From positions 28,231 through 61,528 of the forward strand of contig PLEX01000199.1 of the NCBI GenBank assembly GCA_003136575.1: a DNA stretch of 33,298 bases. Direction: 5' to 3'. Position 1 is the stretch's first letter; each line of letters starts with the position of its first letter. The DNA comes from Bryobacterales bacterium (lineage in GTDB: Bacteria; Acidobacteriota; Terriglobia; Bryobacterales; Bryobacteraceae). The position numbers and the translations under genes are program-made. The notes beneath the pieces are model-generated. The model was not told the origin of the DNA. It saw only the letters and a program-made list of their open reading frames with translations, and did not search any database. Shown piece by piece: positions 6,282 to 20,417 of this stretch.

Positions 6282-8645
6282 TCAACTCACAAACCGGGAA
6301 CGCCGCGGTACCGGACTCAGCCATGCTACCAGAGCTGCGAACAGATACAGCCCGCCGCCGATCAGCAACGTGTGCACTATCCCCAGATAAAGCGCCAGCA
6401 CCAGCGCGCCCACCGAACCCAGCACGCTCGCGGCCGCGTTCAGCGACCACGCCCAGCGCACCGATGGCGGGTGAGCGCGTTCCAGCATGCGCAGGCCGGT
6501 CGGAAACGGCAGCCCCATCGCGAAACCCGCCGGCGTCAGCATCAGAACCGTCGCGGCAACCTTCACAAAAAACGGCAGCCCGACGCCCGCGCTCAGGATT
6601 GGCTGCACAATTGCCGCCAGAATGGCGACCAGCACCGCCACCGCGCCCAGGGCCTTCAGTAAATTCGCCGGGTTATCTCCAATGATTTTGCGGCTTGCAT
6701 AACTGCCGAATCCGCTCGATACCAACATCGAGAAAATAACTACCGTCAGCGCGTAAGTCGGATGCCCCAGGAACAAAACGAACTTCTGGATCATGGCGAC
6801 TTCGATCAGTATGTAGCCCATTCCGATGGCAAGGAAGTAAAGCAGAAAACTCCGCACCGAACCCTCCCGCGGCAGCCTCGTTCCCAGCACCAGCGGCGGA
6901 AGCACAAGAATAATGACGACGGCAACGATACTCACGAACATGGCGTCGAACAGCTTCGGCACAGCCACGTTGACTTTCAGATCGGCCGACTTCGAACCAG
7001 TCTGCAGAATGAACGCCGCCACGTCGCGCGGCTGCACCGTGTAAAAGAAGAATGGCCGATTGTCGCTCACCGGCGTGATATCGAACCGGTAATTCCGCTC
7101 CCAGGCTGCGGGATCCTTCGCCAGCAGCAACTGTCCGAATTCATTGCGCGGCGGATCGCCCGGCAGGTAAATCTCCTCCATGTGGGCGTCCGCGAATGCC
7201 TGGCGCGCGCGTGCCACGTCCGCATCGCTCAGCGCCGACCGCGAAAAGATAACCGTATCGAGCGCACCCCAGCCATGCAGTTCGGACTTGCCGCCGGAAC
7301 GGCCCACCAGCACATGACGCCACGGTTCGGTCTGCCCCAGATCCGCCAGCGCGGACATGGCGAGCGAAACCAGGCGCAGCGACTCGCGCGGCGGATCGAA
7401 TCCCCACCGCGTGAACGTCAGCAGCCCATCGGGAGTGAGGTGCGTAAAGTAGTCGTGAAAGGCGTCCGTCGTGTAAAGGTTGTTTTCCGAAAGCGCGAAC
7501 GCGCCCGCGGCGGTCGAAGCCCAGGTGTCAACCAGCGTTGCCTGAATCACCTGGAACTTGTCCGTGCTGCGCCGAACGAAGCTGCGGCCGTCTTCGACGT
7601 TGATGTGAACGTCCGGACGCAGGTACAGGTACTGGCTTAGCTGTGGAAATTTCTGCCGCATGATCGTCGTCGCGATAATCGGGTTGATCTCCACGGCGGT
7701 GACATCGTGACTGCCCGACGCGAGCGCGCGTGAGACATCCCAGCCGCCGCCCGGTCCGATGATCAACGTCTTCGCGCCGGGCCGCAGATTGTATGGGATG
7801 CCTGGTCCCTGATGCTCCAGGTCCTGTATCTGGCTCGGCGTCAGGTGATTGAAGTCGAAATTGGCGATTGCCGTAGACGCGTCGGCGTCGATGAAAATCA
7901 TCTCGCCGGCGTCTTTATCGGCCGCCAGTCCGATGCGGGAAATGCTGTTCCATTTGGTGAACTGCTCGTCGCGCAGCTTCAGGCCTTTTGCGTACCGCAC
8001 TTCGATAAACGGATGCCCGTAGTTGGCAATCAGCAGCATAGTGAAGGCGAGACCGACGAAAACCCCGGCAATACGCCCGATGCGGTAGCCCGCCAGACCG
8101 AACCAGATGGCGGCTCCGGCGGAAAAGAGCACGGAAACCGCGACGATCGTATTCGGTCCGCCATAGGCGTTCAAAAGGGCGACCAGCGCGAGGCATCCGG
8201 CGGCTGCGCCCAGCAGATCGAAGAAGTAAACTTTGTCTACCCTCTCGATCGTTTCGGAAATCGCAAGCGAAACAATAATGCCGGACCCGACGAAAGGCAG
8301 CGCGATCGTGAAATAGATGACGGCCAGTTCAAGGGTGCCGATATCGGCGCCGCGCGTCAGCACGAAGAGCATTGCGCCGAGTGCAAGGACAGCGTTGATC
8401 AGACTGACCACCCCGAGTTTCTTGTATATCCCACCGCCCGGAGCGACCACGTAAGAAAGAACGCCGCCCACGCCGAGACCAAAAAGGGCGATCGATATTG
8501 CGAGGAAAGCGAAGTGGTAGTAGAAGACTACGGAAAAAATGCGCGTCAGCGCGAGTTCCAGCAGCAGTGTGGCAGAGGTCGTAAGCGCCACAGCAAGATA
8601 AAGCATGGGCCAGCTGGATGGGCGCGAGGCGGGTTTTTGGGGCAA
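6282..8645 (-). CDS. Polytopic membrane protein with a spermidine-synthase-like methyltransferase domain
   Basis: The 787-residue protein has an N-terminal membrane block (about residues 12-210, six or more helices). A soluble Rossmann-type domain follows (about 215-540), then a second membrane block (about 565-780). The soluble part has the nucleotide loop IIGPGGGWDV (about 295-304), an acidic residue ending the next strand (AVEINP, E318) and EDGR (about 351). This is how spermidine synthases and related methyltransferases bind decarboxylated or normal S-adenosylmethionine. Family members fused to membrane domains are widespread and their substrates are largely unknown, so polyamine synthesis should not be assumed despite aguB/aguA nearby. 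The likely start is TTG at 8645, nine bases after the HAD gene stop; an ATG at 8606 is the alternative. Confidence 0.82.
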   Translation of the reverse strand: MPQKPASRPSSWPMLYLAVALTTSATLLLELALTRIFSVVFYYHFAFLAISIALFGLGVGGVLSYVVAPGGGIYKKLGVVSLINAVLALGAMLFVLTRGADIGTLELAVIYFTIALPFVGSGIIVSLAISETIERVDKVYFFDLLGAAAGCLALVALLNAYGGPNTIVAVSVLFSAGAAIWFGLAGYRIGRIAGVFVGLAFTMLLIANYGHPFIEVRYAKGLKLRDEQFTKWNSISRIGLAADKDAGEMIFIDADASTAIANFDFNHLTPSQIQDLEHQGPGIPYNLRPGAKTLIIGPGGGWDVSRALASGSHDVTAVEINPIIATTIMRQKFPQLSQYLYLRPDVHINVEDGRSFVRRSTDKFQVIQATLVDTWASTAAGAFALSENNLYTTDAFHDYFTHLTPDGLLTFTRWGFDPPRESLRLVSLAMSALADLGQTEPWRHVLVGRSGGKSELHGWGALDTVIFSRSALSDADVARARQAFADAHMEEIYLPGDPPRNEFGQLLLAKDPAAWERNYRFDITPVSDNRPFFFYTVQPRDVAAFILQTGSKSADLKVNVAVPKLFDAMFVSIVAVVIILVLPPLVLGTRLPREGSVRSFLLYFLAIGMGYILIEVAMIQKFVLFLGHPTYALTVVIFSMLVSSGFGSYASRKIIGDNPANLLKALGAVAVLVAILAAIVQPILSAGVGLPFFVKVAATVLMLTPAGFAMGLPFPTGLRMLERAHPPSVRWAWSLNAAASVLGSVGALVLALYLGIVHTLLIGGGLYLFAALVAWLSPVPRRSRFVS

Positions 8646-8654
8646 GCTTACAGT

Positions 8655-9350
8655 TTAGACGATGGCCAGATCGAGGCGGGTGAGATCTTCAAGCAGGAGA
8701 TCCGGCCCGGCCGCGACGAGTTCTTCAATCGGCGCGATTCCCGTCCGCACCGCGATCGATTGCACTCCCGCATCGCGCGCCGCCTGTATGTCCGACGCGG
8801 CATCGCCGATCAGGGTAATTCTCGCATCAGAACCGATCAGGCCCTCGCGGCGGGCACGCTCGACGGCCATTTTGGCGAGGTCGCCGCGGGTTGGCGCCAT
8901 TTCTCCGAAAGCGCCGAAACGGAAGTAGTGGCCGATTCCCGCGCGCAAGAGCTTGTGCCAGCCGATCCGCGTGAGGTTTCCCGTGACGAGCGCGAGCACG
9001 ACCCCGCGCTGCGTGAGTTCTTCGAGGATGGCCGGCAGCCCAGGACACAATTTGTCGCGCAGATCGGGAACGCCCGTCTGGTAGAGATCCTGCGCCGCGT
9101 CCATCGCGGCGGGGAGCACGCGTTGCGCCTCGGCATCGGAGATTCCGGCCGCGCGGAGCATCAATGTCAGGATGACGCGATCCAGCATGCCATGGACCGG
9201 GATCCCGTCCGTAGTGGCGGCGATTCCCGTCACCTGAAGCACGGCGTTTTCAAGCGCCGCCCGGTGATGAGGCCCCGCGCCCCGCGTCAAAGTGCCGTCG
9301 ATATCGAAGAGTACAAGTGAGGAACTCAACTCCCAGAGTACGCGATCCAA
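8655..9350 (-). CDS. HAD-superfamily phosphatase (phosphoglycolate-phosphatase-like)
   Basis: This 231-residue hydrolase has the HAD motifs in order. Motif I is LFDIDGTLTRG (about 14-24, nucleophile and acid aspartates), motif II is LVTGN, the lysine region follows in the middle, and motif IV is LIGDAASDIQAARDAG. A helical cap between motif I and II fits the subclass that includes phosphoglycolate phosphatase and beta-phosphoglucomutase. The substrate cannot be assigned from sequence. The only upstream start is TTG at 9348-9350; a TTG seven codons later is also possible, and neither has a clear ribosome site. It heads the minus-strand run with the spermidine-synthase-like and Yip1-like genes and diverges from aguB across 32 bases. 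Confidence 0.85.
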   Translation of the reverse strand: MDRVLWELSSSLVLFDIDGTLTRGAGPHHRAALENAVLQVTGIAATTDGIPVHGMLDRVILTLMLRAAGISDAEAQRVLPAAMDAAQDLYQTGVPDLRDKLCPGLPAILEELTQRGVVLALVTGNLTRIGWHKLLRAGIGHYFRFGAFGEMAPTRGDLAKMAVERARREGLIGSDARITLIGDAASDIQAARDAGVQSIAVRTGIAPIEELVAAGPDLLLEDLTRLDLAIV

Positions 9351-9382
9351 CCGGCGGCATCGGCACGACTAAAATAGTGTGA

Positions 9383-10264
9383 GTGAATCCCCCGAAATTC
9401 CATATCGGACTGATCCAGAATGCGTGTGTTCTCGACACGCAGGCCAATCTCGACCACGCCTGCGAAAAAATCCGCGAAGCCGCCGCGCGCGGTGCCCAGG
9501 TCGTGTGCCTTGAGGAACTTTTCCGCTCTCAGTACTTCTGCCGCGAAGAAGACGCTCGCCTGTTCGACCTCGCCGAAACCATTCCAGGCCCATCCACGAA
9601 TCGCCTTCAGCCCCTTGCCGCCGAACTCGGCGTGGTGATCGTCGCGTCTCTGTTTGAAAAGCGAGCCACAGGTCTCTATCACAACACTGCGGTAGTGATC
9701 GACGCCGATGGCGCGCTGCTCGGTCTCTATCGCAAGATGCATATTCCGGACGATCCGCTCTTCTTCGAAAAGTTTTACTTCACCCCCGGCGATCTGGGCT
9801 TCCGCGCGTTCGATACGAAATTCGGACGGATCGCGACTCTGGTCTGCTGGGATCAGTGGTATCCCGAAGCCGCGCGCCTGGCCGCCTTGACCGGCGCCAA
9901 TGTGATCTTCTACCCGACGGCCATCGGCTGGCATCCCGCCGAAAAGGCGCAGTACGGCGAAGCGCAGCACGACGCGTGGCGGACCATGCAACGATCCCAC
10001 GCTATCGCGAACGGCATCTTTGTCGCCGCAGTCAATCGCGTAGGTTTTGAGGGGCCGTCGGACCGGGGCCTTGAATTCTGGGGCGCATCGTTCGTGAGCG
10101 ACCCGTTTGGCCGCGTCCTCGCCGAAGCCTCGCACGACAAGGAAGAGATTCTGGTGGTCGATTGCGATCCGGCGGCGATGGAAGAAGTCCGCCGCAACTG
10201 GCCATTTCTTCGCGACCGGCGCATCGACGCGTACGGCCCTATCCTGAACCGGTTTCTCGTGTGA
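9383..10264 (+). CDS. aguB: N-carbamoylputrescine amidase
   Basis: AguB hydrolyses N-carbamoylputrescine to putrescine, CO2 and ammonia. The 293-residue protein is a carbon-nitrogen hydrolase with the catalytic triad visible: glutamate in CLEELF (E45), lysine in YRKMHIPD (K118) and cysteine in LVCWDQW (C155). The segments FRSQYFCREED, DDPLFFEKFYFTPGD and NGIFVAAVNRVG are typical of the AguB branch rather than general nitrilases. The start is a GTG at 9383. Its TGA overlaps the GTG of aguA (GTGA, four bases), so the two enzymes are translationally coupled. No arginine decarboxylase lies in the window, so the source of agmatine is elsewhere or external. Confidence 0.94.
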   Translation: MNPPKFHIGLIQNACVLDTQANLDHACEKIREAAARGAQVVCLEELFRSQYFCREEDARLFDLAETIPGPSTNRLQPLAAELGVVIVASLFEKRATGLYHNTAVVIDADGALLGLYRKMHIPDDPLFFEKFYFTPGDLGFRAFDTKFGRIATLVCWDQWYPEAARLAALTGANVIFYPTAIGWHPAEKAQYGEAQHDAWRTMQRSHAIANGIFVAAVNRVGFEGPSDRGLEFWGASFVSDPFGRVLAEASHDKEEILVVDCDPAAMEEVRRNWPFLRDRRIDAYGPILNRFLV

Positions 10265-11289
10265 GCGCGACGACAGCAGACAGTCCGCGATCCCTCGGCT
10301 TCCGCATGCCGGCCGAGTGGGAGCCGCACGAAGCGACTTGGATCGCCTGGCCTCACAACGAGGAAGACTGGCCGGGGCGGTTTGAGCCGATCAAGTGGGT
10401 CTACGCCGAGATCGTGCGCAAGCTTTCCGCCGTCGAACGAGTGAAGATTCTGGTTCGCGACGAGGATCTGCGCGAGACCGCACGGCAGGCACTGGAAATG
10501 GTTGGCGCGAACATGGCCGCCATCGATTTCCGCCTGGCGCCCACCGACCGCGTCTGGACCCGCGACTTCGCGCCGCTGTTCCTGAAGAATGCGGCGGGCG
10601 AAGTGGCCGGAGCGAAGTTCAAATTCAACGGTTGGGCGAAGTACGGCAATCATCTGCTCGACGATGCCGCCGGACGCGCGCTTCCTGGCGTCCGCTGGCA
10701 ACCCGACTTTGTGCTGGAAGGCGGCAGTGTCGACGTGAACGGCGCAGGCTTGCTCCTTACCACCGAAGAATGCCTGCTCAGCCCGATTCAGGCAAGAAAT
10801 CCTACGCTGACGCGCGGGCAACTGGAAGCGCGCCTGAGCGAATATCTCGGCATCGACCGCGTTCTTTGGTTCAACAACGGCATTGCGGGCGACGACACGC
10901 ACGGGCACATCGACGACCTTGCCCGTTTTACCGGTGCGGATTCCATCGTCATCGTCTCGGAAGACGATCCGTCGGACCCGAACCATGAACCGATGCTGGA
11001 AAACTGGGATCGGGCGCGGACCATGCCGGTGCACGCGCGGAAATTGCACATGCCCGCGCCCCTCTGTTTCGATGGCGTGAGACTGCCGGCGAGCTATGCG
11101 AACTTCTATATCGCGAACCAGACCGTGCTCGTGCCGACGTTCAACGACCCAAACGACCGCGTGGCGCTGAACACCCTGGCCGAATGTTTTCCGGATCGTC
11201 GGGTCATCGGCATCAACTGCGTGGAACTCGTTTGGGGACTCGGAACGCTGCATTGCATGACGCAGCAATTGCCCGCCGGGGCGCGTTAA
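10261..11289 (+). CDS. aguA: Agmatine deiminase
   Basis: AguA (porphyromonas-type peptidyl-arginine deiminase fold) converts agmatine to N-carbamoylputrescine, which AguB then uses. The 342-residue product has the family opening FRMPAEWEPHEATWIAWPHN, the substrate loop TDRVWTRDFAP, and EGGSVDVNG. It also has the catalytic histidine region GDDTHGHIDDLARF and the C-terminal active-site cysteine in GLGTLHCMTQQ (about C332). The GTG at 10261 overlaps the aguB stop by four bases; an ATG at 10306 would still keep all conserved segments. The pathway order is reversed relative to gene order, which is common. Both genes together give a complete agmatine-to-putrescine route. Confidence 0.95.
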   Translation: MSATTADSPRSLGFRMPAEWEPHEATWIAWPHNEEDWPGRFEPIKWVYAEIVRKLSAVERVKILVRDEDLRETARQALEMVGANMAAIDFRLAPTDRVWTRDFAPLFLKNAAGEVAGAKFKFNGWAKYGNHLLDDAAGRALPGVRWQPDFVLEGGSVDVNGAGLLLTTEECLLSPIQARNPTLTRGQLEARLSEYLGIDRVLWFNNGIAGDDTHGHIDDLARFTGADSIVIVSEDDPSDPNHEPMLENWDRARTMPVHARKLHMPAPLCFDGVRLPASYANFYIANQTVLVPTFNDPNDRVALNTLAECFPDRRVIGINCVELVWGLGTLHCMTQQLPAGAR

Positions 11290-11304
11290 GCTGGTAACCG
11301 CAAT

Positions 11305-12297
11305 ATGAGACTTGTACAACTTTCCGGCCCGCTGGGACGCCGCGTCGCTGTAGTGGAAGAACCGCAGCTTCGCCTCCTCGAAGGCCCGCCCACCGTTTAC
11401 GATCTGGCGTCGGAGTGTCTGCGCGAAGGGACTTCTCTCGCCTCCGCCATCGAACGTCATAAATCCGCCGACCTGCTCGATTACGACCCGATATACCGGG
11501 GCGAATCCGACTGGCGTCTGCTGCCCTCCGCCGATTTCCCGGGCGAGCCGTCGCGATGCCTGGTGAGCGGCACCGGACTCACGCATCAGGCGAGCGCGAA
11601 GAACCGCGATGCCATGCATGCAGGCACGCAGGCGGTCACCGACAGCACGCGCATGTATCTTAGCGGCGTCGAAGGCGGCAAACCCGCGCCAGGTGAAGCG
11701 GGCATTTCACCCGAATGGTTTTACAAGGGCTCGGGGGCTGTGCTGCGCGCGCATGGCGAACCGCTCGTTGTTCCCGAATTCGCCGAAGATGGCGGCGAAG
11801 AACCGGAAGTCGCGGGAGTCTACATCGTCGACTTGAAGGGAACGCCGCGCCGCGTTGGGTTTACCGTTGGCAACGAATTCTCCGACCACGTTTTCGAGCG
11901 TAAGAATTATCTCTACCTGGCCGCTTCCAAACTGCGCACCTGCTCCATAGGTCCGGAACTGGTAATCGACGCCGATTTCAATCTGATCCCCGGCGAAGTC
12001 GCGGTGGAGCGCGATGGCAAGACTCTTTGGTCGCACGCGATCAAGACCGGCGAGGCGACGATGTGCCACAGCCTTGCCAACATCGAGCACCATCATTTCA
12101 AGTTCGATTTTCACCGCAGTCCCGGCGATCTGCACATCCATTTCTTCGGCGCGGACGCGTTCAGCTTCGGCGCAGGCGTGCAATTGCAGGATGGAGACGT
12201 GATGCAGGTTCGCTTCGACGGTTTCGGCCGCGCTCTGCGTAATCCGATGACACGCGTATCGGTATCGACGAAGGCAGTCGAAGTCAAACCGATCTGA
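11305..12297 (+). CDS. AraD1/GguC-like protein of the fumarylacetoacetate hydrolase fold
   Basis: The 330-residue protein matches the AraD1/GguC pattern. It opens with MRLVQLSGPLGRRVAVVEE and has the central SGTGLTHQASAKNRDAMHAG motif. The metal-binding FAH-like segment PEWFYKGSGAVLRAHGEPL is followed by acidic residues DGGEEPE, then GNEFSDHVFERKNYLYLAASKLRTCSIGPEL. Relatives act on 2-keto-3-deoxy sugar acids, for example in oxidative arabinose breakdown, but the exact substrate here is unknown. It begins 15 bases after aguA and may share its transcript, though function suggests it belongs with the transporter and ribokinase further right. That link is supported by a transporter 3' remnant 13 bases downstream of its stop. 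Confidence 0.8.
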   Translation: MRLVQLSGPLGRRVAVVEEPQLRLLEGPPTVYDLASECLREGTSLASAIERHKSADLLDYDPIYRGESDWRLLPSADFPGEPSRCLVSGTGLTHQASAKNRDAMHAGTQAVTDSTRMYLSGVEGGKPAPGEAGISPEWFYKGSGAVLRAHGEPLVVPEFAEDGGEEPEVAGVYIVDLKGTPRRVGFTVGNEFSDHVFERKNYLYLAASKLRTCSIGPELVIDADFNLIPGEVAVERDGKTLWSHAIKTGEATMCHSLANIEHHHFKFDFHRSPGDLHIHFFGADAFSFGAGVQLQDGDVMQVRFDGFGRALRNPMTRVSVSTKAVEVKPI

Positions 12298-12310
12298 ATC
12301 TACCGCACAA

Positions 12311-12344
12311 GGCTACTTCTGCGTCGCCATCCCGATCAGTGTCG
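12311..12344. repeat. Left direct repeat bounding the insert
   Basis: Bases from 12311 match those from 13810 over about 34 positions. Both share GGCTAC, then TGCGTCGCCATCCCGATCAG, then a diverged tail. The left copy has three extra bases (TTC) and a few substitutions. Both copies are in the same orientation and encode, on the minus strand, the last residues of a transporter. Such paired 3'-end copies are what an integrative element or an old duplication leaves behind. The divergence says it is not recent. Confidence 0.75.
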
Positions 12345-12354
12345 GCCCGCTCAG
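12313..12354 (-). pseudogene. Remnant 3' end of a sugar-transporter gene
   Basis: Read on the minus strand, this stretch encodes KLSGPTLIGMATQK followed by TAG. The intact transporter at 13812-14807 ends in YAGGLTLIGMATQ followed by TAG, so the two share LTLIGMATQ-type endings and the stop. Nothing upstream on the minus strand continues the transporter, so only the tail survives. It may be the recreated or displaced gene end left by insertion of 12345-13809, or the last trace of a second, tandem transporter gene. Confidence 0.6.
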
Positions 12355-12471
12355 TTTCCTGGCGTCTGCAACGCGGGAGTCAGGGTCTGGCAAGGCAAAC
12401 CCGCATTGACGACAGCATGGTCGGTATCGACCGGTATCAAAGACCTCCCAGCGCGGCCTCCTGCGAGTCGT

Positions 12472-12496
12472 TACAATTGAATCTGGAACGATTGTA
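12472..12496. promoter_or_regulatory. Inverted repeat before the small frameshifted gene
   Basis: Perfect arms TACAAT (12472-12477) and ATTGTA (12491-12496) are 13 bases apart. The right arm runs directly into the ribosome site TAGGAGG (12495-12501) of the gene starting at 12506. The position fits an operator or a hairpin that could hide the ribosome site. No protein binding it can be named. Confidence 0.35.
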
Positions 12497-12505
12497 GGAG
12501 GACGT

Positions 12506-12771
12506 ATGCAGCATACATTCACGTTGCACGAGGACTTGCAAGCTGACTCGTGGCTCCGCAGCGGGCCTGATTTCAAGAGCGGCCAGGTCACGGGGTATCG
12601 GGTCGGGGGATGCCCGACGGAAGCGCGGCCAGGATCGCAAACTTCAGAGCGCCCAATGGGAACGACTGGCGGATCATGCGAATCAGTGCCGACAACACTC
12701 AGACTGGTTGGGCTGGCCACTACGAGACTCTCTACGATGCGTTAGCGGCGTTACAGCAGGTTTGCCCGTAA
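12506..12771 (+). pseudogene. Small gene of unknown function, broken by one frameshift
   Basis: An ATG at 12506 follows an excellent ribosome site (TAGGAGG, four bases away). The frame reads sensibly through DFKSGQVTGYRVGG to a run of five G residues (12605-12609). After that the convincing frame is the one starting MPDGSAARIANF at 12610, which continues through NGNDWRIMRISADNT and GHYETLYDALAALQQ to TAA at 12769. One extra G in the run would join both parts into about 88 residues. I do not recognise the family; the second half looks like a compact alpha/beta domain ending in a helix. The single-base break is either real decay or a homopolymer sequencing error. It lies in the AT-richer insert just before the HEPN gene. 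Confidence 0.55.
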
Positions 12772-12867
12772 TCCCTTTGGCGCAGGGACAACTTCTCCCC
12801 CGACGCGAAGCAGTTGCGACTTCTGCGAGGCGTGACGGAATCCGCGGTCTGATGCTTCTCTAAGCCA

Positions 12868-13921
12868 ATGTTCACTGAGTTCGCGCTGGTCCGCAATTTC
12901 TTGTTCAACGGTCGAGCGACTCGACTTCGGCGAATTCCGGATTTGCCGCGTCGGACTTCGATTCGCGGAGATTAGAGAAATATTTTCGTCCGCAGACGTA
13001 AACCCGGGCGATTGGTTTTTGGAAAAAACCTACACGCAGGAACCTCCGCTGAATGACATCGAAGATGCGCTCCTGCTTCTTCCAATGTATAAGCCTGGCG
13101 AAATATCATTCGTAAGGCGGGCGACGCTGGCGCCGGGAGGCAATGTCCGAGTCCATCTGCCGTACCGGGCGATGAACGATCTCAACAGCTATTCTCACTT
13201 GGAATTCGGGACTGATCCAGACGATTGCCTCTTATGGACTGCCTTCGCGGCTCGTATTCGGGAAAGTCGGTCATGGAGTTCCGAATGGTTCGCAGCGGCG
13301 CGGCGGTTCTTCCTCTGTGGCGGCGCAAAGCAATTTAAACGGGATGATGTGGATCGGGTTTTGGACTACGCCACGGCGCTCGAGGCTACGCTCGTTCCCG
13401 AGAGGGACTACAGCGCCCGCCGAATCCGCCATCGTGCAGCCGAACTGCTCGATCCTGGAAACCCCGCCGAAAAGTCCGCGACCGTAAAATTCATAAACAA
13501 GTTCTACGACATTCGCTCAACGATAGTACACGGCAGCAGGCTTAGCGAAGAGAGCATGGACTGGCTGATTGAGAATCACGCTCAACTTGAGCTTAAGGTA
13601 CGGCGGATTCTTCTAACGGCAGTCCGGAAACTTCCACCCGGAAAGGAAGATCGTCAGCGCGTCCTGGCTGGATTGTACGACCCGACGGACGAGGATCGAG
13701 GGAACTTCGTTCTCGAGAGGTTCAATGGGATTAAAACCGCGGAAGCGAAGAAGGCGGTCGCCGCCAGGATAGCAGAATTGGTGGGCGAGTGGTCGAACGC
13801 TGCCAGTCTGGCTACTGCGTCGCCATCCCGATCAGCGTCAGACCGCCCGCATAAGCCACGAACATCGCGGCAACAAATTTTCCGGTGCCTCGCGGCGCAT
13901 CGCGGAATTCCTTCCAAATGA
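12868..13921 (+). pseudogene. Apea-like HEPN-domain protein gene, frameshifted and fused at its 3' end
   Basis: Coding starts plausibly at the ATG at 12868 (MFTEFALVRNFLFN) but that frame stops at 12973. From about 12911 the good frame is the next one (ERLDFGEF, then FAEIREIFSSADV, PGDWFLEKTY), which runs on to 13921. The frame from 13019 starts only with TTG and lacks the N-terminus, so one extra base near 12908-12912 explains the data. The middle and C-terminal parts show the HEPN pattern, with WFAAARRFFLCGGAK, then RIRHRAAELL, then FYDIRSTIVHG. In the last, R (13514-13516) and H (13529-13531) make the R-x4-H motif of HEPN ribonucleases. Family-like sequence ends near 13807, and the remaining codons are antisense to the transporter gene. 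HEPN proteins often act in toxin or phage-defence systems; that role here is inference. Confidence 0.65.
13810..13845. repeat. Right direct repeat bounding the insert (inside the transporter 3' end)
   Basis: This is the right-hand partner of the copy at 12311-12344 and overlaps the stop and last codons of the intact transporter. The HEPN reading frame runs through it on the opposite strand without a stop of its own. That suggests the HEPN gene lost its native end at this junction. Confidence 0.75.
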
Positions 13922-14807
13922 ACACGCCCCAAATGGCGGCAATCAGCGTTGCGCCCTGCCCGAGCGCGTAGGAAACCGCCGGCCCCGCCTGTCCCGACGC
14001 GATGACGTTCAGACTCAGCGCCAGCATCCAGATCAGGCCGCCAAGAAATCCCAACGAGTGCAGCCTGAAACCACCGCGCAGATAGTCGGCATAAGTCACT
14101 CCGCCTGTTCGCATAAAAATCGTATTGACCAGCAGATTGCTGCCGAGCAGCCCCGCGCCGAATAGCGGCAAAGCGGTGTATGGCGTCAGATATCCGGGCA
14201 GAATTGTTCCCGCGCCGAATCCCGGCGACATCGACTCCGACAGCACCGGATAGAAGAAGCCCATCATGCACCCCGCGATCACCGCGAAGATTACGCCTCG
14301 TATCCAGCTCCGGTTGCCCGGCTGCGGCAGTCTGCTGTAAGCTACCGCCGAAAGCAGCATGGCGCAAATCACCAGACCGACTCCTGTGAAGAGCAATCCG
14401 CCGTTGCCCTTCGGCGATTGCGCGTAACTCGCAACCGTGCCGATCACCAGCGCCAGCCCCACGCCTACCGGAAACGCGACCGACATCCCCGCGGCGTCGA
14501 TCGCCACCACCAGCAGGATGTTCGAGACATTGAATAACACGCCGCTCAGAAACGCCTGCCGCACCGGACCCGCGGCCGCCTGGGAAAGATTCGCGAATGA
14601 ACCCATGCCGGAACTTCCGGTCGTCCCAAGGGTCGCCATCATCACAATGCCCAGCGCGAATACGCCGAACGCGTAATCCCAGTAATACAACGGGAATGGC
14701 CATTTATCTTTTCCGGCCAGCTTCTGCGTGTTGGCCCACGAACCCCATCCGAGCATGGTCAGGACGCAAAAAAAGATGGCGAGTCCGGTACTGTCGACGA
14801 TAAACAT
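13812..14807 (-). CDS. GRP-family (GlcU/RbsU-type) sugar transporter
   Basis: The 331-residue protein has about ten hydrophobic helices and almost no long loops. It opens with a helix carrying MLGWGSWANTQKL and has the repeated glycine-rich packing (LLGSNLLVNTIF, GGLIWMLALSLNVIASG, AVSYALGQGATLIAAIWGVFIWKEF) of the drug/metabolite superfamily branch that carries glucose, ribose or rhamnose. The ribokinase gene ends only 13 bases upstream, so ribose or a similar pentose is a reasonable guess; the substrate is not proven. The ATG at 14805-14807 follows AGAGGAAAC on the minus strand. The 3' end carries the direct repeat bounding the insert to its left and is overlapped by the broken HEPN frame. 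Confidence 0.8.
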   Translation of the reverse strand: MFIVDSTGLAIFFCVLTMLGWGSWANTQKLAGKDKWPFPLYYWDYAFGVFALGIVMMATLGTTGSSGMGSFANLSQAAAGPVRQAFLSGVLFNVSNILLVVAIDAAGMSVAFPVGVGLALVIGTVASYAQSPKGNGGLLFTGVGLVICAMLLSAVAYSRLPQPGNRSWIRGVIFAVIAGCMMGFFYPVLSESMSPGFGAGTILPGYLTPYTALPLFGAGLLGSNLLVNTIFMRTGGVTYADYLRGGFRLHSLGFLGGLIWMLALSLNVIASGQAGPAVSYALGQGATLIAAIWGVFIWKEFRDAPRGTGKFVAAMFVAYAGGLTLIGMATQ

Positions 14808-14820
14808 GGTTTCCTCTTAT

Positions 14821-15747
14821 TCAGACCGCGAACATGCGCTTCACATCCTCGGCATCGGGCGCTGAATTCTGCGCGCCGGGACGAGTCACCGAAACCGCGG
14901 CCGCCGCGTTGGCAAAACGCATGGCGTCCCTTATGGATGCGCCTTCCGCAAGCGCCACCGCGAGCGCCCCGTTGAAGACATCGCCCGCCGCCGTCGTATC
15001 CACAGCAGTCACCTGGAACGCACCGGCCCGCACCATTCCTTCCACGCCGGAATAAAGACTGCCAACAGCCCCAAGCTTCATCGTTACCGCCTGCACCCCC
15101 AGCGCAAGCAGTCGCAGCGCAGCCCGTTCCGCGTCGTCGAAGGTCCCCATGCCCAACGCCGGATCGCCGATCAGCACCGCAGCCTCCGTCTGATTGGGGG
15201 TCAGGATACCGACGCATTCGAGCAACTTCCGGGGCAGAGCGCGGGCCGGCGCAGGATCGAGCATCGTCGCCGCTCCGACTTTTGCCGCATGAGCGAATGC
15301 GGCCTCCACCGTTTCAAGAGGCGTTTCCAGTTGCGCCAGCAGAAAATCTCCCGCCGCAATGTCGGCTAATTGCGCCAAAGCGGTGCCAGAATCGAGATCT
15401 GCGTTCGCCCCCGGCGAAATCACAATGGAATTCTCGCCGCCCGGTAACACATAAATGCACGCGCATCCCGTAGGCCGTACCGACGTTTTAATCCGGCTGG
15501 TATCTACCCCCGCACGGCCAAGACTTTCGAGCAGCGTCTGCCCGAAAGGATCCGCGCCAACCGCCGCAATCATCTTCACATCGCCGCCGAGCCTTGCCGC
15601 GGCGACAGCCTGGTTCGCTCCTTTGCCGCCGGGGAATAACGCCAAGTCCCCGCCAGCCAGGGTCTCGCCTTCGCGCGGCAACCGGTCGAGGGCAAACACA
15701 AGGTCCATGTTGGCGCTGCCAAGCACGAAGATTCTGCGCTTATGCAT
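14821..15747 (-). CDS. rbsK: Ribokinase (PfkB family)
   Basis: Ribokinase phosphorylates D-ribose at O5 using ATP. The 308-residue protein has the PfkB signature 1 GGKGANQAVAAARLGG (40-55). The early sugar-binding segment is GSANMDLVFALDRLP, and the C-terminal signature is DTTAAGDVFNGALA with catalytic base D256. The AAGD form of this last motif, rather than GAGD, is also seen in E. coli RbsK and supports ribokinase over fructokinase. GGAG lies six bases before the ATG on the minus strand. The transporter follows after 13 bases, making a two-gene uptake and phosphorylation unit; the FGE-fold gene precedes it by 13 bases. A related pentose or nucleoside substrate is possible. Confidence 0.88.
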   Translation of the reverse strand: MHKRRIFVLGSANMDLVFALDRLPREGETLAGGDLALFPGGKGANQAVAAARLGGDVKMIAAVGADPFGQTLLESLGRAGVDTSRIKTSVRPTGCACIYVLPGGENSIVISPGANADLDSGTALAQLADIAAGDFLLAQLETPLETVEAAFAHAAKVGAATMLDPAPARALPRKLLECVGILTPNQTEAAVLIGDPALGMGTFDDAERAALRLLALGVQAVTMKLGAVGSLYSGVEGMVRAGAFQVTAVDTTAAGDVFNGALAVALAEGASIRDAMRFANAAAAVSVTRPGAQNSAPDAEDVKRMFAV

Positions 15748-15760
15748 GAAGTCTCCGGAC

Positions 15761-17953
15761 TTACTGCGCGTCCACCACGCACCGGAAGCCCACGGTGCCG
15801 GAACGGTCCTTTGCGGGCGCCATCAGCAGCAGCTTGCCGTGCTCGCCCAGCCTATAGGACTGCGGGAAGTACCATCGCGAACCCTGCGGTTGATAGTAGC
15901 TGCCCCCGCGCAGAATAGCCGCCCGCGTGTGATCGTCCGAATACTCATCCGTCCACTGCCACGCGTTGCCGGTCAGGTCTTCCACGCCGAACGGACTTGC
16001 CCCGCGTGGATGAGCCGTCACGTCGTCGGGACCGGTAAGTGTGCGCCCTTTATCCGGCGTCGGCACTGCCGCCGGATCCCACTGGTTTCCCCACGGATAC
16101 ACCCGTCCATCCGATCCCTGTGCCGCATACTGCCATTCCCATTCGTGGGGCAGACGTTTGCCCGCCCAATGCGCATAAGCCCGGGCGTCTTCGAGCGAAA
16201 TCCATGTAACCGGCTTGTTCGCCCAGCCAGCCGGGTAATTTCCATCCTTCCAGTCCTTCAGAAAGTTGTGGTTGTCGGCGGGGCTGTATTTCGACGCATC
16301 CAGAAATTTCCGGAACTCGGCATTCGTCACCGGATAGCGATCAATGTAGAACGGCCCGATTTGCACAGTTGACCTGTGCGCCCGCCGGGCCACATTCTCC
16401 CACGGATATTGCACATCCACGCCAATCTGGTTCTCGCCTTCTATCTCGATGCCGGATACTTCGAACATGAAGCTTGTCCCGGGGATGCGCACCATTCCGG
16501 CTGGCGAACTGGCCGCAGGCTTCGTCGGCGCGATGGCGGTCGCGGTCTGTGGCAACACGTTCCGTTCTTTCGAAAAACTATCCAGCCGCTTTGCGCTCAG
16601 CGTCTTCATGCCCGCAAGGAATGTGTTCAGAACCGCGTTGACAGCCGAGGCGTCGATCGCGAGAATCGCACCATAGCCGCTTGCTTCCATGGGAAAACTC
16701 AAGACCATCGAAGTGCCCCTGCCCGGCGCAGGCGTCAACTCCACACCGTGCCACAGATCAAAGTACCGCTGCCCGGCCTTACCCGGAATCTCAATCTGTT
16801 CCCCCGCCACGTCGAACTCGTTCTTATTCACGATGGTCCAGACCGTGCGACCGCCAGCTGGGTCCACCAGCGGCCATTTGCTCGCATAAATGCCGGTCTG
16901 CAGCACAGGCGTGTGCGGCTCCCAATCCGCGGTGACCAGATTCGCGGCAAACTGCCGCTCGATCCGCCCGATGCGCCGCACTGTCTCCGAATCGCGCGGC
17001 GTCATCTGGTTCCAGATCCCCCAGATGTTTTCCCATGTCTCCATGCCCACGCCGTTGAAGAACGCGTACTGCAGATCGACGTTCTTGTCCCGTTGCCAGC
17101 GGTCGGAGATGTTGGTCATATGGCGCGGCTCCAGCCATTTGTATTTCGAAACCAGTTGTGGGACTGGCAGCATTCCACCTCCCGTCGCCGGACCGGTCGC
17201 CTGCCCCCAGTTCATGTTGTTCCAGGCCAGCGCTTCGTCTACCGTGAGCGACTCCGGCTCGAACGCCAGCGGATGCCCGGTCTTATCGGAAGCCAGACGA
17301 TACTCGCGCGGCACCGCCGCCATCGTGTCGCCGTTGATGCCATCCGCGCCGACCTCGGCCAGTTCCTCAGCCAGCGCTCTCGACTCGGCCATGCCGAAAT
17401 CGCGCGTGCCCTGATCCCAGAGCATCATCGGAAACAGCACGCGCACGCCGCGGCGTTGAAAGTCCGCCACCATTTGCCGAACGCCCGCCATCCCGCCCGG
17501 CATATCGCGGAAGTGATCGAACTGGCTGCGGTCGTCGATGCCGATGTTCGGATACGTGTGCCACACGAGCACCGCGTCGATGCCGCCGTAACGCTTCTCC
17601 AGATCGTCGAGGTAACGATCCACCGTGTACTTGCCCGCGGCCGGATCGAAAAAATACCGGTCTTCGATCATCATCTGCGGCTGCATGAAGCTGCTTTGGG
17701 TCCACTTCAGCTCCGGCCTGTCGTACTCGGAGCCGCTGTAACCGATCCGCTTCAGGTACTCCATGCGCCAGCGCTTCATGTCGGCAATCCAGCGCGGAAA
17801 ATCGGCGGGCGTGCGGGGACCCTCGAAATGATAGCCCTGCGGCGCAACGGCGGGGTCCTGCGCGGCGAGGGGAAACGGCCGATACCCGATCGTCGCTGCG
17901 ATCGTCAGAGCAGCTATGATTACCCCTGTTCCCGCAGTTGAAAGTCTGTTCAT
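15761..17953 (-). CDS. Secreted two-part protein: glycosidase-like N-terminal region plus FGE-sulfatase fold
   Basis: The 730-residue protein has a signal peptide ending near LAAQ. Residues about 35-470 contain barrel-like strands (AVLVWHTYPNIG, RVLFPMMLWDQGT, GADGINGDTMAAVP), suggesting a glycosidase-like TIM barrel; I cannot name the family. From about residue 486 an FGE/EgtB-type fold is clear: MVRIPG, YIDRYPVTNAEF, PVTWISLEDARAYAHWAGKRLP, EWEWQYAAQG, YPWGN, LTGNAWQWTDEY, LRGGSY and GTVGFRC. The two catalytic cysteines that follow GGSY in true formylglycine-generating enzymes are absent here (QPQGSRW instead), so oxidase activity is unlikely and ligand binding more so. I prefer the ATG at 17953, preceded by GAGG, over the ATG at 17977. 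It probably begins the transcript continuing to rbsK and the transporter. Confidence 0.75.
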   Translation of the reverse strand: MNRLSTAGTGVIIAALTIAATIGYRPFPLAAQDPAVAPQGYHFEGPRTPADFPRWIADMKRWRMEYLKRIGYSGSEYDRPELKWTQSSFMQPQMMIEDRYFFDPAAGKYTVDRYLDDLEKRYGGIDAVLVWHTYPNIGIDDRSQFDHFRDMPGGMAGVRQMVADFQRRGVRVLFPMMLWDQGTRDFGMAESRALAEELAEVGADGINGDTMAAVPREYRLASDKTGHPLAFEPESLTVDEALAWNNMNWGQATGPATGGGMLPVPQLVSKYKWLEPRHMTNISDRWQRDKNVDLQYAFFNGVGMETWENIWGIWNQMTPRDSETVRRIGRIERQFAANLVTADWEPHTPVLQTGIYASKWPLVDPAGGRTVWTIVNKNEFDVAGEQIEIPGKAGQRYFDLWHGVELTPAPGRGTSMVLSFPMEASGYGAILAIDASAVNAVLNTFLAGMKTLSAKRLDSFSKERNVLPQTATAIAPTKPAASSPAGMVRIPGTSFMFEVSGIEIEGENQIGVDVQYPWENVARRAHRSTVQIGPFYIDRYPVTNAEFRKFLDASKYSPADNHNFLKDWKDGNYPAGWANKPVTWISLEDARAYAHWAGKRLPHEWEWQYAAQGSDGRVYPWGNQWDPAAVPTPDKGRTLTGPDDVTAHPRGASPFGVEDLTGNAWQWTDEYSDDHTRAAILRGGSYYQPQGSRWYFPQSYRLGEHGKLLLMAPAKDRSGTVGFRCVVDAQ

Positions 17954-18083
17954 TCCGACCTCGTTCCCATCGGCCATGCGGCCGGCGGGCTGATGCAGTA
18001 TCTCAGCATATCCGAACCATGCCGCGCCGTGGGACTGCCCGAGCGAACACGGCGCTTACAGGTAGCTTTGAGATACTCGTTTA

Positions 18084-18155
18084 CCGCTCCCTGACGGGTC
18101 GGGGCCCGGAAACCGATCGTTGATTCCTTCCGAGCCGCGCGCGTGAGCAAGCGGT
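18084..18155. repeat. Dispersed GC-rich (REP-like) repeat pair
   Basis: In the 290-base gap between the divergent FGE-fold and kinase genes, CCGCTCCCTGACGG (18084-18097) is followed by GAGCCGCGCGCGTGAGCAAG (18132-18151) and then CGGT. The second half is a variant of 28723-28746. I recall similar short repeats scattered between genes in Solibacter-like genomes; that is memory, not a search. The rest of the gap shows no gene. Confidence 0.5.
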
Positions 18156-18243
18156 GCGGTAGCGCCGGGGTTTCGTACAACCGCCGTCTGCTTCCTCCCC
18201 CAACCACAGACGAAATTTCCCACCCCGCGCTAAGCTGAAATCC

Positions 18244-19725
18244 ATGAACGACAAGCGCGCGCCGGACTCAGCGCAAATAGCACAACTCGCGTTACGTGTT
18301 GCGGCAATGGGCGCAATCGTCGGCGCGCTGACATTCACGATGGCCAGGCTCCCGGTGAACGCAACCACCGCCGGTTTCGGGTATCTGGTAGCGATCCTCT
18401 TCGGCGCAACGAAGTGGGGCCTGACGGAAGCCACCATCGGATCCGTAATCGCCGTTCTTTGTTTTAACTATTACTTTCTCCCGCCCATCGGCACGTTTAC
18501 GATCGCCGATCCCCAAAACTGGGTTGCACTCTTCGCACTGCTGATCACTTCAATTACGGCCAGTCGCCTTTCGACCCGCGTGCGCAAACAGGCGATCGAG
18601 GCGCAGGACAGGCAACAGGAGCTTGAACGTCTCTACTCGCTGAGCCGTTCCATTCTTCTGATCGATTCCGCGCAGTCCGTTTCCCGGCAGGTCGTGAATC
18701 AGGTAGCGCAGGCATTTGATGCGGCAGCCGTGGTGCTTTACGACCACTCTACGGGAGAATTATTTCGCGCCGGCCGGGAGGACTTCGGCGGCACCGAGGA
18801 ACAACTGCGCCAGGCTGCGTCGCAGGGGACGCAACTTCACGACCCCGGGTCGCGCACATGGATTACCGCCGTACGGCTCGGCGCACAACCGGTCGGCAGC
18901 CTGGGCATCGGCGGCGTGGTTCTCTCCGATTCCGCCATGCAGAGCCTGACGAATCTCGTGGCGATCGGCCTCGAAAGGGCGCGCGCCCAGGAATCCGCCA
19001 GCCGCGCCGAGGCCGCAAGGCAGAGCGACGAGCTGAAGTCCACTCTGCTCGACGCCATCGCCCACGAGTTCAAAACACCGCTGACGACCATCAAGGCTTC
19101 CACCACCGCTCTGCTGTCCGATAAACCGCCAAAGCCGGAACAGCAGCGCGAATACATCTCGCTGGTGGATGAAGAGGCCGACCGGCTCAGCGGGCTGGTT
19201 TCCGAGGCGATTCAGATGGCGCGCATCGAAGCGGGGCAGGTGCGGCTGCAACTGGAGGAAACGCCGGTTACCGAATTGCTTGAAAACGTGCTGACAAAAA
19301 TGAAGTCCGCCGTGGACGACCGCAAGGTTGAGATCGACGCTCCGCCAGATCTGCCGCCGGTAAAGGTTGACAGAGAGATGATGGAGCTGACGTTTCGCCA
19401 ATTGATCGATAATGCGGTGAAGTACTCGCCGCCGGGATCGCCGATCGCCATCTCTGCCGTCGCCGAGGACGGCCAGGTAGTGACTCGCGTGCGGGACCAG
19501 GGTCGCGGGATAGCGTCGGCCGACCTGACACGCATTTTCCAGAAGTTTTACCGGGGGAAGGAATTGCGGAATCAAGTACCGGGGGCGGGTCTCGGACTGG
19601 CGATCGCACGCGCCGTCGTCATCGCTCATGGCGGCACGATATGGGCTGAAAGCAAGCCGGGCGAGGGTTCGACGTTTTGCGTGGCGCTTGCGGAAGCGCT
19701 GCCGGCGGAGGAGGGTCGCGCATGA
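18244..19725 (+). CDS. kdpD: KdpD-like sensor histidine kinase lacking the N-terminal KdpD domain
   Basis: Classical KdpD is about 890 residues; this one is 493 and lacks the N-terminal ATP-binding KdpD and Usp domains. It starts directly with the four-helix DUF4118 membrane module (about 15-110, including FGATKWGLTEA and NYYFLPPIGTFTIADPQN). A GAF-like region (about 130-245), a coiled coil and HisKA follow, with the acceptor in LDAIAHEFKTPL (H274). The ATPase domain contains FRQLIDNAVKYSPPG, VRDQGRGI and GAGLGLAIARAVV. It should phosphorylate KdpE, whose gene overlaps the stop by four bases (ATGA). A separate UspA-like gene at 20574 may replace the lost domain. No strong ribosome site precedes the ATG. 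Confidence 0.87.
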   Translation: MNDKRAPDSAQIAQLALRVAAMGAIVGALTFTMARLPVNATTAGFGYLVAILFGATKWGLTEATIGSVIAVLCFNYYFLPPIGTFTIADPQNWVALFALLITSITASRLSTRVRKQAIEAQDRQQELERLYSLSRSILLIDSAQSVSRQVVNQVAQAFDAAAVVLYDHSTGELFRAGREDFGGTEEQLRQAASQGTQLHDPGSRTWITAVRLGAQPVGSLGIGGVVLSDSAMQSLTNLVAIGLERARAQESASRAEAARQSDELKSTLLDAIAHEFKTPLTTIKASTTALLSDKPPKPEQQREYISLVDEEADRLSGLVSEAIQMARIEAGQVRLQLEETPVTELLENVLTKMKSAVDDRKVEIDAPPDLPPVKVDREMMELTFRQLIDNAVKYSPPGSPIAISAVAEDGQVVTRVRDQGRGIASADLTRIFQKFYRGKELRNQVPGAGLGLAIARAVVIAHGGTIWAESKPGEGSTFCVALAEALPAEEGRA

Positions 19726-20417
19726 GCTTAGGCCGCATATTAATAGTCGACGACGATCCGCAAATCCGGCGGGTCATGAAGATGACTCTTACCGGCGAGG
19801 GCTATGAGGTCGGCGAAGCGAGGTCGGGTGAGGAAGCGGAGCTGGAGCTGCGCAGGAGCCAGTACGATCTGATGCTGCTGGATATGAACATGCCCGGCGT
19901 GGGCGGCTTTGAAACCTGCAAATCCGTGCGCGCGTTTTCCGACATCTCGATCATCGTTTTGACGGTTCGCAACAGCGAGCGCGACAAAGTGAGTGCGCTC
20001 GACGCCGGCGCAGACGATTTCATCACCAAGCCGTTCAGTTCGCCGGAACTGCTGGCCCGTATTCGCGCCGTTTTGCGCCGGGCTCCCGCGCCGCCGGAGG
20101 GCGGCCCGCGGCAAGTGGTTCTGGACGGCGTCGAAATCGACTTTCAGGCGCGCAAGGTCCTCGTGCGCGGGGAACAGTTACACCTGACCCCCAAGGAGTT
20201 CGACTTGTTGCGGTATCTGATTATGAATCCGAACCGCGCGATTCCCCATCGCGAGTTATTGCAGGCGGTGTGGGGACCGGATTACGGCGATCAGGTCGAG
20301 TACCTTCGCGTGTTTATCAAACAGATCCGGCGCAAGATCGAAGCCAAACCCGACAAACCCGTCTACCTGCTGACGGAACCCTGGGTTGGCTATCGATTTG
20401 CACTGCCCGAAGCGTAA
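19722..20417 (+). CDS. kdpE: KdpE response regulator (OmpR/PhoB family)
   Basis: The 231-residue regulator has a receiver domain with acidic pocket VDDDP, acceptor D54 in MLLDMNMPG, the switch threonine in IIVLTVR and the lysine in FITKPF. The C-terminal winged helix contains LHLTPKEFDLLRYLIMNPNRAI and HRELLQAVWG, then YLRVFIKQIRRKIE, the DNA-binding helix and wing typical of KdpE. Phosphorylated KdpE activates the K+-transport genes that begin downstream. The ATG at 19722 overlaps the kinase stop (ATGA). The 156 bases after the stop carry no gene. They probably contain the promoter for the transport genes, but I could not pick a convincing -10/-35 pair or KdpE site. Confidence 0.93.
   Translation: MSLGRILIVDDDPQIRRVMKMTLTGEGYEVGEARSGEEAELELRRSQYDLMLLDMNMPGVGGFETCKSVRAFSDISIIVLTVRNSERDKVSALDAGADDFITKPFSSPELLARIRAVLRRAPAPPEGGPRQVVLDGVEIDFQARKVLVRGEQLHLTPKEFDLLRYLIMNPNRAIPHRELLQAVWGPDYGDQVEYLRVFIKQIRRKIEAKPDKPVYLLTEPWVGYRFALPEA

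Follow-up and report, generated by a model that had tools for sequence, protein, structure and literature searches.

A compact two-gene cassette, made up of a -10-like box, a gene for an 84-aa protein and a gene for an HEPN-type protein of about 319 aa, lies in a decayed state between an araD1-like gene and a GRP-type transporter gene in the 33,298-nt stretch of DNA analyzed here (the window). With confidence a little above even, we read the whole locus as a decayed mobile cassette, encoding a putative ApeA-like RNase and its small partner, that was joined to the transporter end by recombination.

The cassette in the window

The features of the locus are as follows.

11305–12297 (+): araD1-like gene with an FAA-hydrolase domain (Pfam PF01557, E 2.5e-5); left neighbor, convergent with the transporter.
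12311–12350 (-): left repeat, a remnant GRP-type transporter 3' end (...LIGMATQK*); 15 nt separate it from the araD1 stop.
12472–12477 (+): TACAAT, the -10-like box of the cassette, which precedes the small-gene ATG by 34 nt.
12506–12771 (+): gene for the small partner, which has 84 aa in most relatives; one base missing after about 12606 shifts the frame in this copy.
12868–13792 (+): HEPN-type gene with an ApeA-like HEPN domain, 312–319 aa in intact relatives.
13810–13846 (-): right repeat, the 3' end of the intact transporter.
13812–14807 (-): intact GRP-type transporter gene (ureide permease / sugar transport-like; Pfam PF07168, E 4.5e-8).

The sequence-only reading had placed two genes between the repeats. 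Both are indeed present, but the small one is frameshifted in this copy. The HEPN gene carries one extra base at or near 12905, and TGG replaces its stop codon at 13790–13792. The two frameshifts are contradicted in the alignment by all ten other copies, and a stop codon is found in each of the seven other copies that reach the window's TGG, the remaining three being truncated or shortened; none of the three lesions recurs in the copies that cover the respective sites (10, 10 and 7). The same reading had noted that the HEPN frame lacks its own stop, as we find; this loss explains why the frame runs through the right repeat, and it stays open to 13921. The HEPN motif RSTIVHG is undamaged.

The composition of the insert differs from its surroundings in the direction first reported, if only modestly (56.9% G+C compared with 60.7% for the window; of 637 overlapping segments of equal length, 36 have a G+C this low). 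At third codon positions the HEPN part has a G+C fraction of 0.61, compared with 0.69–0.75 in seven other window genes. Inspection by eye of the ORFs and six frames between the repeats showed no integrase or transposase, in agreement with the earlier statement that none is left. The only other ORF scanned there (12313–12720) has no Pfam match, and no tRNA gene was found in the window.

Conservation of the gene pair in relatives

A profile of the HEPN protein (E of 1e-3 or less) matches 15 of the 257 genomes of the order, 11 of them as close copies and four in the HEPN domain only. The small-gene profile matches 13 of the 257, namely the same 11 and, weakly, G101 and G315. In all 11 close copies the small gene stands immediately upstream of the HEPN gene on the same strand, and the two adjacent, co-directional genes thus travel together as those of a toxin–antitoxin module do. 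In a sample of the class, 14 of 399 genomes are matched by the HEPN profile, mostly in the HEPN domain only. A TA[ACG]AAT box is found within 45 nt of the small gene in 11 of 11 copies, at position -22 or -21 in eight of the ten other copies, at -26 in two and at -34 in the window.

Low dN/dS in unsaturated pairs is counted here as purifying selection on the cassette genes. For the HEPN gene the only pair not near saturation is G497/G500 (dN/dS 0.051/0.231); for the small gene the same pair gives 0.091/0.290, with 0.092/0.324 and 0.095/0.220 in two further pairs. Five of the 11 copies (G525, G017, G497, G500 and G435) have an intact HEPN gene; it is shortened by about 31 residues in G205 and frameshifted in five (G072, G345, G524, G511 and the window), two of which are also truncated. 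Ten of the 11 copies keep an intact small gene. This excess of intact small genes (10/11 versus 5/11) was considered as a sign of antitoxin logic and set aside, as the HEPN gene is about four times longer; by a rough hand estimate, the chance of such a pattern from length alone is of the order of 0.2.

The pair is not strictly inseparable, given solo HEPN relatives and a small gene apart from any HEPN gene. Two distant HEPN relatives (L121 and L122) occur with no small gene. In G511 a second small-gene match (contig C375, L161 209–442, E 2.4e-18) lies inside an open frame of 293 codons, on a contig with no match to the HEPN profile. Some further fragments and neighbors were recorded. The solo relatives (L121 6053–7030 and L122 6703–7623, 36–41% identical) lie near transposase-like genes, one of REP type and an IS3-like pair (labels by eye). 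G101 encodes an 88-aa protein akin to the small partner (L159 1492–1758, E 8e-6), and no HEPN protein of the family was detected in that genome. G500 holds an HEPN C-terminal fragment (L145 6341–6466) on a contig separate from that of its intact copy.

Possible relation of the HEPN protein to ApeA

The HEPN superfamily motif Rx4-6H, with a polar residue after the arginine, is present as RSTIVHG, and the R, S and H of RSxIxHG are invariant in eight aligned members including the window. Passages of PMC3710099 describe this motif as an RNase active site, and passages of PMC13405049 state that HEPN RNases work as homodimers and list ApeA among them; ApeA is likewise mentioned as a HEPN system in a part of PMC7699616.

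The connection to ApeA, which defends against phages, runs through nine larger acidobacterial HEPN proteins, which were retained out of 12 domain-level matches (L111, L115 and L134 were omitted, as R-x4-H was not found in their ORFs). These bridging proteins were matched with E values of 1e-5 to 6e-4 per genome each, except for that of G539 (1.5e-10). The alignment of the HEPN part of six family proteins matches the alignment of these nine in hhalign with a probability of 99.2 and E 3.7e-19. With the profile of the nine, the seven best matches in the PDB are solved ApeA proteins (E 5.2e-6 to 0.05); with the joint profile of 15 proteins, ApeA ranks first to seventh (E 3e-4 to 0.62). Y, R and H are invariant in the joint alignment, an invariance that is partly a matter of choice, since nine of its proteins were kept for showing R-x4-H. 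The family's own profiles, including that of the HEPN part alone, retrieve neither ApeA nor anything else relevant from the PDB, and neither cassette protein scores above the cut-offs of Pfam, NCBIfam or PADLOC models. The ApeA link is therefore a transitive one. The PADLOC ApeA model gives no match to the family and a weak one (E 0.035) to a single bridging protein, and Pfam gives the bridging HEPN proteins sub-cut-off matches only, such as one domain to HEPN_RiboL-PSP at E 0.1.

About 135–140 residues precede the HEPN domain and have no Pfam match; the beta-rich N-terminal domain of about 300 aa that passages of PMC3710099 describe for ApeA is absent here. The small gene shows only a weak similarity to a phage family, phrog_5306 (E 9e-4 and 4e-3).

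From this chain of profiles we infer that the HEPN protein would be an ApeA-like ribonuclease effector, silenced or triggered through the small protein. Gene order and co-occurrence lead us to guess that the latter might be an antitoxin or a sensor; the solo HEPN relatives count against a strict need for it.

Location of the cassette copies

The cassette is scattered through one acidobacterial family and stands between unrelated flanks in the 11 genomes examined. Among 265 flanking ORFs of at least 100 aa, taken within at most 6 kb of the 11 loci, not one cross-locus match was found at 1e-10 (G017 has almost no left flank and the flanks of G500 are short, both contigs being short). Those flanking genes with a Pfam assignment are ordinary: argR/argH, recA, 3-hydroxyacyl-CoA dehydrogenase, M20 peptidase, spermine synthase-like and others. 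Nine of the 20 flank proteins scanned have no Pfam family. At the G511 locus (L144 5385–6449) the cassette begins 57 nt past the end of recA. In the four intact copies measured, the HEPN gene is lower in G+C than its own locus (51.6–56.5% versus 56.6–61.8%).

The ends of the cassette are sharp. In the closest pairs similarity stops 42–46 nt ahead of the small gene and 16–36 nt past the HEPN gene. Between G497 and G500, genomes with different genus labels, the copies share 90% identity along 1,366 nt, from -42 of the small gene to +36 of the HEPN stop, and the flanks are otherwise unrelated, save for one extra 43-nt upstream match. Such identity under two genus labels marks a recent transfer. 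Likewise, G017 is 85–86% identical to G072, of another genus label, and 61% identical to the window copy of its genus-mate; such genus labels may be wrong, given that all five named relatives are MAGs and that contamination amounts to 10% in G072. The surroundings differ in three same-genus pairs, one flank being missing for G000/G017.

No recombinase, terminal repeat or empty site that would account for movement of the cassette was found. Direct or inverted repeats flank none of nine other copies above the level of shuffles (500 nt on each side; G017, at a contig edge, was excluded), and exact 11-mers gave no repeat at the flanks of four of these. In G205 the cassette sits where five of six relatives, fetched out of 22 matching, have a FecR-like gene (label by eye) 23–37 nt upstream of the M20 gene, while in the two genus-mates of G525 only the right flank is conserved; neither flank comparison with genus-mates gave a clean empty site. 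Searches of IMG/VR, plasmids and phages found no relatives of the HEPN protein.

Vertical inheritance of a non-mobile pair, moved by ordinary rearrangement and lost in most lineages, would agree with the restriction of close copies to one family and with these empty searches of plasmids, phages and IMG/VR. We consider it very unlikely, as identity between genera exceeds that within a genus and ends sharply with the cassette, the three same-genus pairs (G000/G017 with one flank missing) differ in their surroundings, and no syntenic site common to several genera was seen.

The duplicated transporter end and its neighborhood

The tail of the transporter gene occurs twice in the same orientation, as first proposed. 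The copies at 12316–12350 and 13812–13846 are identical at 31 of 35 nt; the best 35-nt match in 20 window shuffles reaches 19–22 and the real runner-up, with the left copy masked, 23. Inside the repeat is an exact core of 21 nt, and the copies differ on both sides of it. The core has exactly two copies in the assembly, both in the window, along with two sites at three mismatches (6.6 Mb in 242 contigs, 83% complete, were searched), and none of 100 shuffled windows yielded two core matches. A search for the repeat around other cargo, which had been proposed as a check, thus came out negative: elsewhere in this assembly the exact core flanks none.

Once a 3-nt indel is allowed for, the minus strand of the left copy gives ...GPTLIGMATQK*, and the intact gene ends ...GGLTLIGMATQ*. 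The Q is shared by both window tails and absent from all 19 other transporter tails printed (L in 16, other residues in three distant ones), so the left copy derives from the lineage of this very gene rather than from an old paralog. The transporter-derived sequence there amounts to no more than about 35–45 nt. The left repeat lies about 100 nt beyond the conserved end of the cassette, and the right repeat is almost flush with the other end. We take the repeat to be a trace of the recombination that placed the cassette beside the transporter, rather than a feature of the cassette.

No other genome searched shows this neighborhood. A 3.5-kb query found no match across the araD1–transporter junction in any of 18 genus relatives (11 matched in part, seven nowhere), and the two genes were never adjacent in the 10 araD1 and eight transporter neighborhoods read. 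The four closest araD1 orthologs (76–82% identical) have neighborhoods with no transporter. The relative of the transporter in G001 is 85% identical; two further GRP genes of the genome itself, each off this contig, are 45% and 32% identical. In G001 and G012 a speE-HAD-aguB-agmD block adjoins the kdp genes, and beyond agmD other genes follow. Their araD1 genes lie on a separate contig, as does the G001 transporter, and an empty site is therefore unreadable there. Compared with both genomes, the speE-to-agmD block is inverted relative to the kdp genes in the window (6282–20417), and between block and kdp stand araD1, the cassette, the transporter, rbsK and a gene for a 738-aa protein. The agmatine-deiminase ORF (10162–11289) overlaps aguB by about 100 nt; an in-frame stop in the matches of several relatives to this ORF means that translation probably starts farther downstream than 10162.

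How the second tail arose can be explained in several ways. An att site that resembles the transporter 3' end could have let an element integrate site-specifically with help in trans, rebuilding the right end and leaving the original at the left. The geometry would suit this, with a transporter complete to its stop, a displaced end that keeps the araD1 side and repeat copies that match exactly over 21 nt and diverge on both sides. We nevertheless judge such integration unlikely: none of the nine other cassette copies has flanking repeats, the exact core does not recur in the assembly, about 100 nt separate the left repeat from the conserved cassette end, no integrase was seen by eye between the repeats and the window has no tRNA gene. 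Of the original proposal of a small element or defense cargo inserted at a gene 3' end, what stands is a conserved, patchily distributed, defense-like unit that occupies unrelated sites and here lies beside a duplicated transporter 3' end; an att-site element is unsupported, with 0 of 9 other copies flanked by repeats and no other cargo flanked by the core. The alternative raised along with it, the scar of a lost tandem transporter, finds little support. Here deletion would have left only the tail of one of two GRP genes, and the HEPN pair would have entered the gap or been present already. A left copy that is a tail with its own stop (MATQK*), slightly unlike the intact one, would agree with that; yet just 35–45 nt are left, the shared Q assigns the left copy to this gene's own lineage, the other GRP genes of the genome are only 45% and 32% identical and on other contigs, tandem GRP genes occur in none of eight transporter neighborhoods and none of 18 genus relatives matches across the junction. 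These observations render the scar quite improbable. A chimeric assembly, with unrelated pieces joined at a short repeat, would explain why the junction exists in this assembly alone among 19 genus genomes. We regard it as highly improbable, because the speE-HAD-aguB-agmD block at the left and the kdp genes at the right form one conserved neighborhood in G001 and G012, so that a single contig should carry both, and because an identity of 21 nt is short for an assembly mis-join.

Discussion

The preferred reading, a cassette joined to the transporter end by recombination, suggests the following course of events. An ApeA-like HEPN ribonuclease would cut RNA on a trigger, such as phage infection or stress, and growth would stop. 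The small protein, made just ahead of it, would bind and restrain the HEPN protein, or would sense the trigger. Recombination would have joined the cassette to the 3' end of the transporter gene, leaving a second copy of that end beside araD1, and two frameshifts and the lost stop would then have cost the cassette its function here.

Among known systems the cassette comes closest to ApeA, to which the profile chain links it transitively; each has a HEPN domain with the R-polar-x3-H motif and, upstream of it, an LE helix. ApeA is a single-gene system with one large protein. A preprint in the reference list of PMC13405049 concerns its activation by deoxydinucleotides. The solved chains (Ec1–Ec4ApeA and Thr1ApeA; PDB 9hx- entries) have 546–619 aa without tags, whereas the proteins described here have 312–319 aa and a short N-terminal part of no recognized family, and a conserved small gene precedes theirs. 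HEPN-MNT (type VII) toxin–antitoxin systems resemble the cassette in that a HEPN protein and a small partner form a two-gene unit of patchy distribution, but the partner matches no nucleotidyltransferase model at Pfam and NCBIfam cut-offs, and the HEPN protein is longer, with a domain nearer to ApeA. Genomic islands at gene 3' ends also carry cargo flanked by a duplicated gene end; unlike them, the present locus has no visible integrase, no tRNA target and a length of only 1.5 kb, and its repeat does not recur with other cassette copies. A literature search, thin on subscription papers, found no recognizable description of the pair. The cassette is thus possibly an undescribed kin of ApeA, an HEPN module that combines an ApeA-like domain with a small gene of its own.

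A broader proposal is put forward tentatively, as somewhat short of an even chance. The cassette may be a self-contained mobile defense unit of about 1.37 kb with no transposase or integrase of its own. Its ApeA-like HEPN ribonuclease, only about 319 aa long, would work together with an 84-aa protein dedicated to control or sensing, and the unit would pass from genus to genus among soil Acidobacteriota, settle in gaps next to ordinary genes and decay thereafter. If this is true, a short two-gene relative of ApeA would represent an alternative control of the same kind of RNase domain and a compact test system, and sharp cassette ends with no mobility gene would make the movement of small defense genes directly testable.
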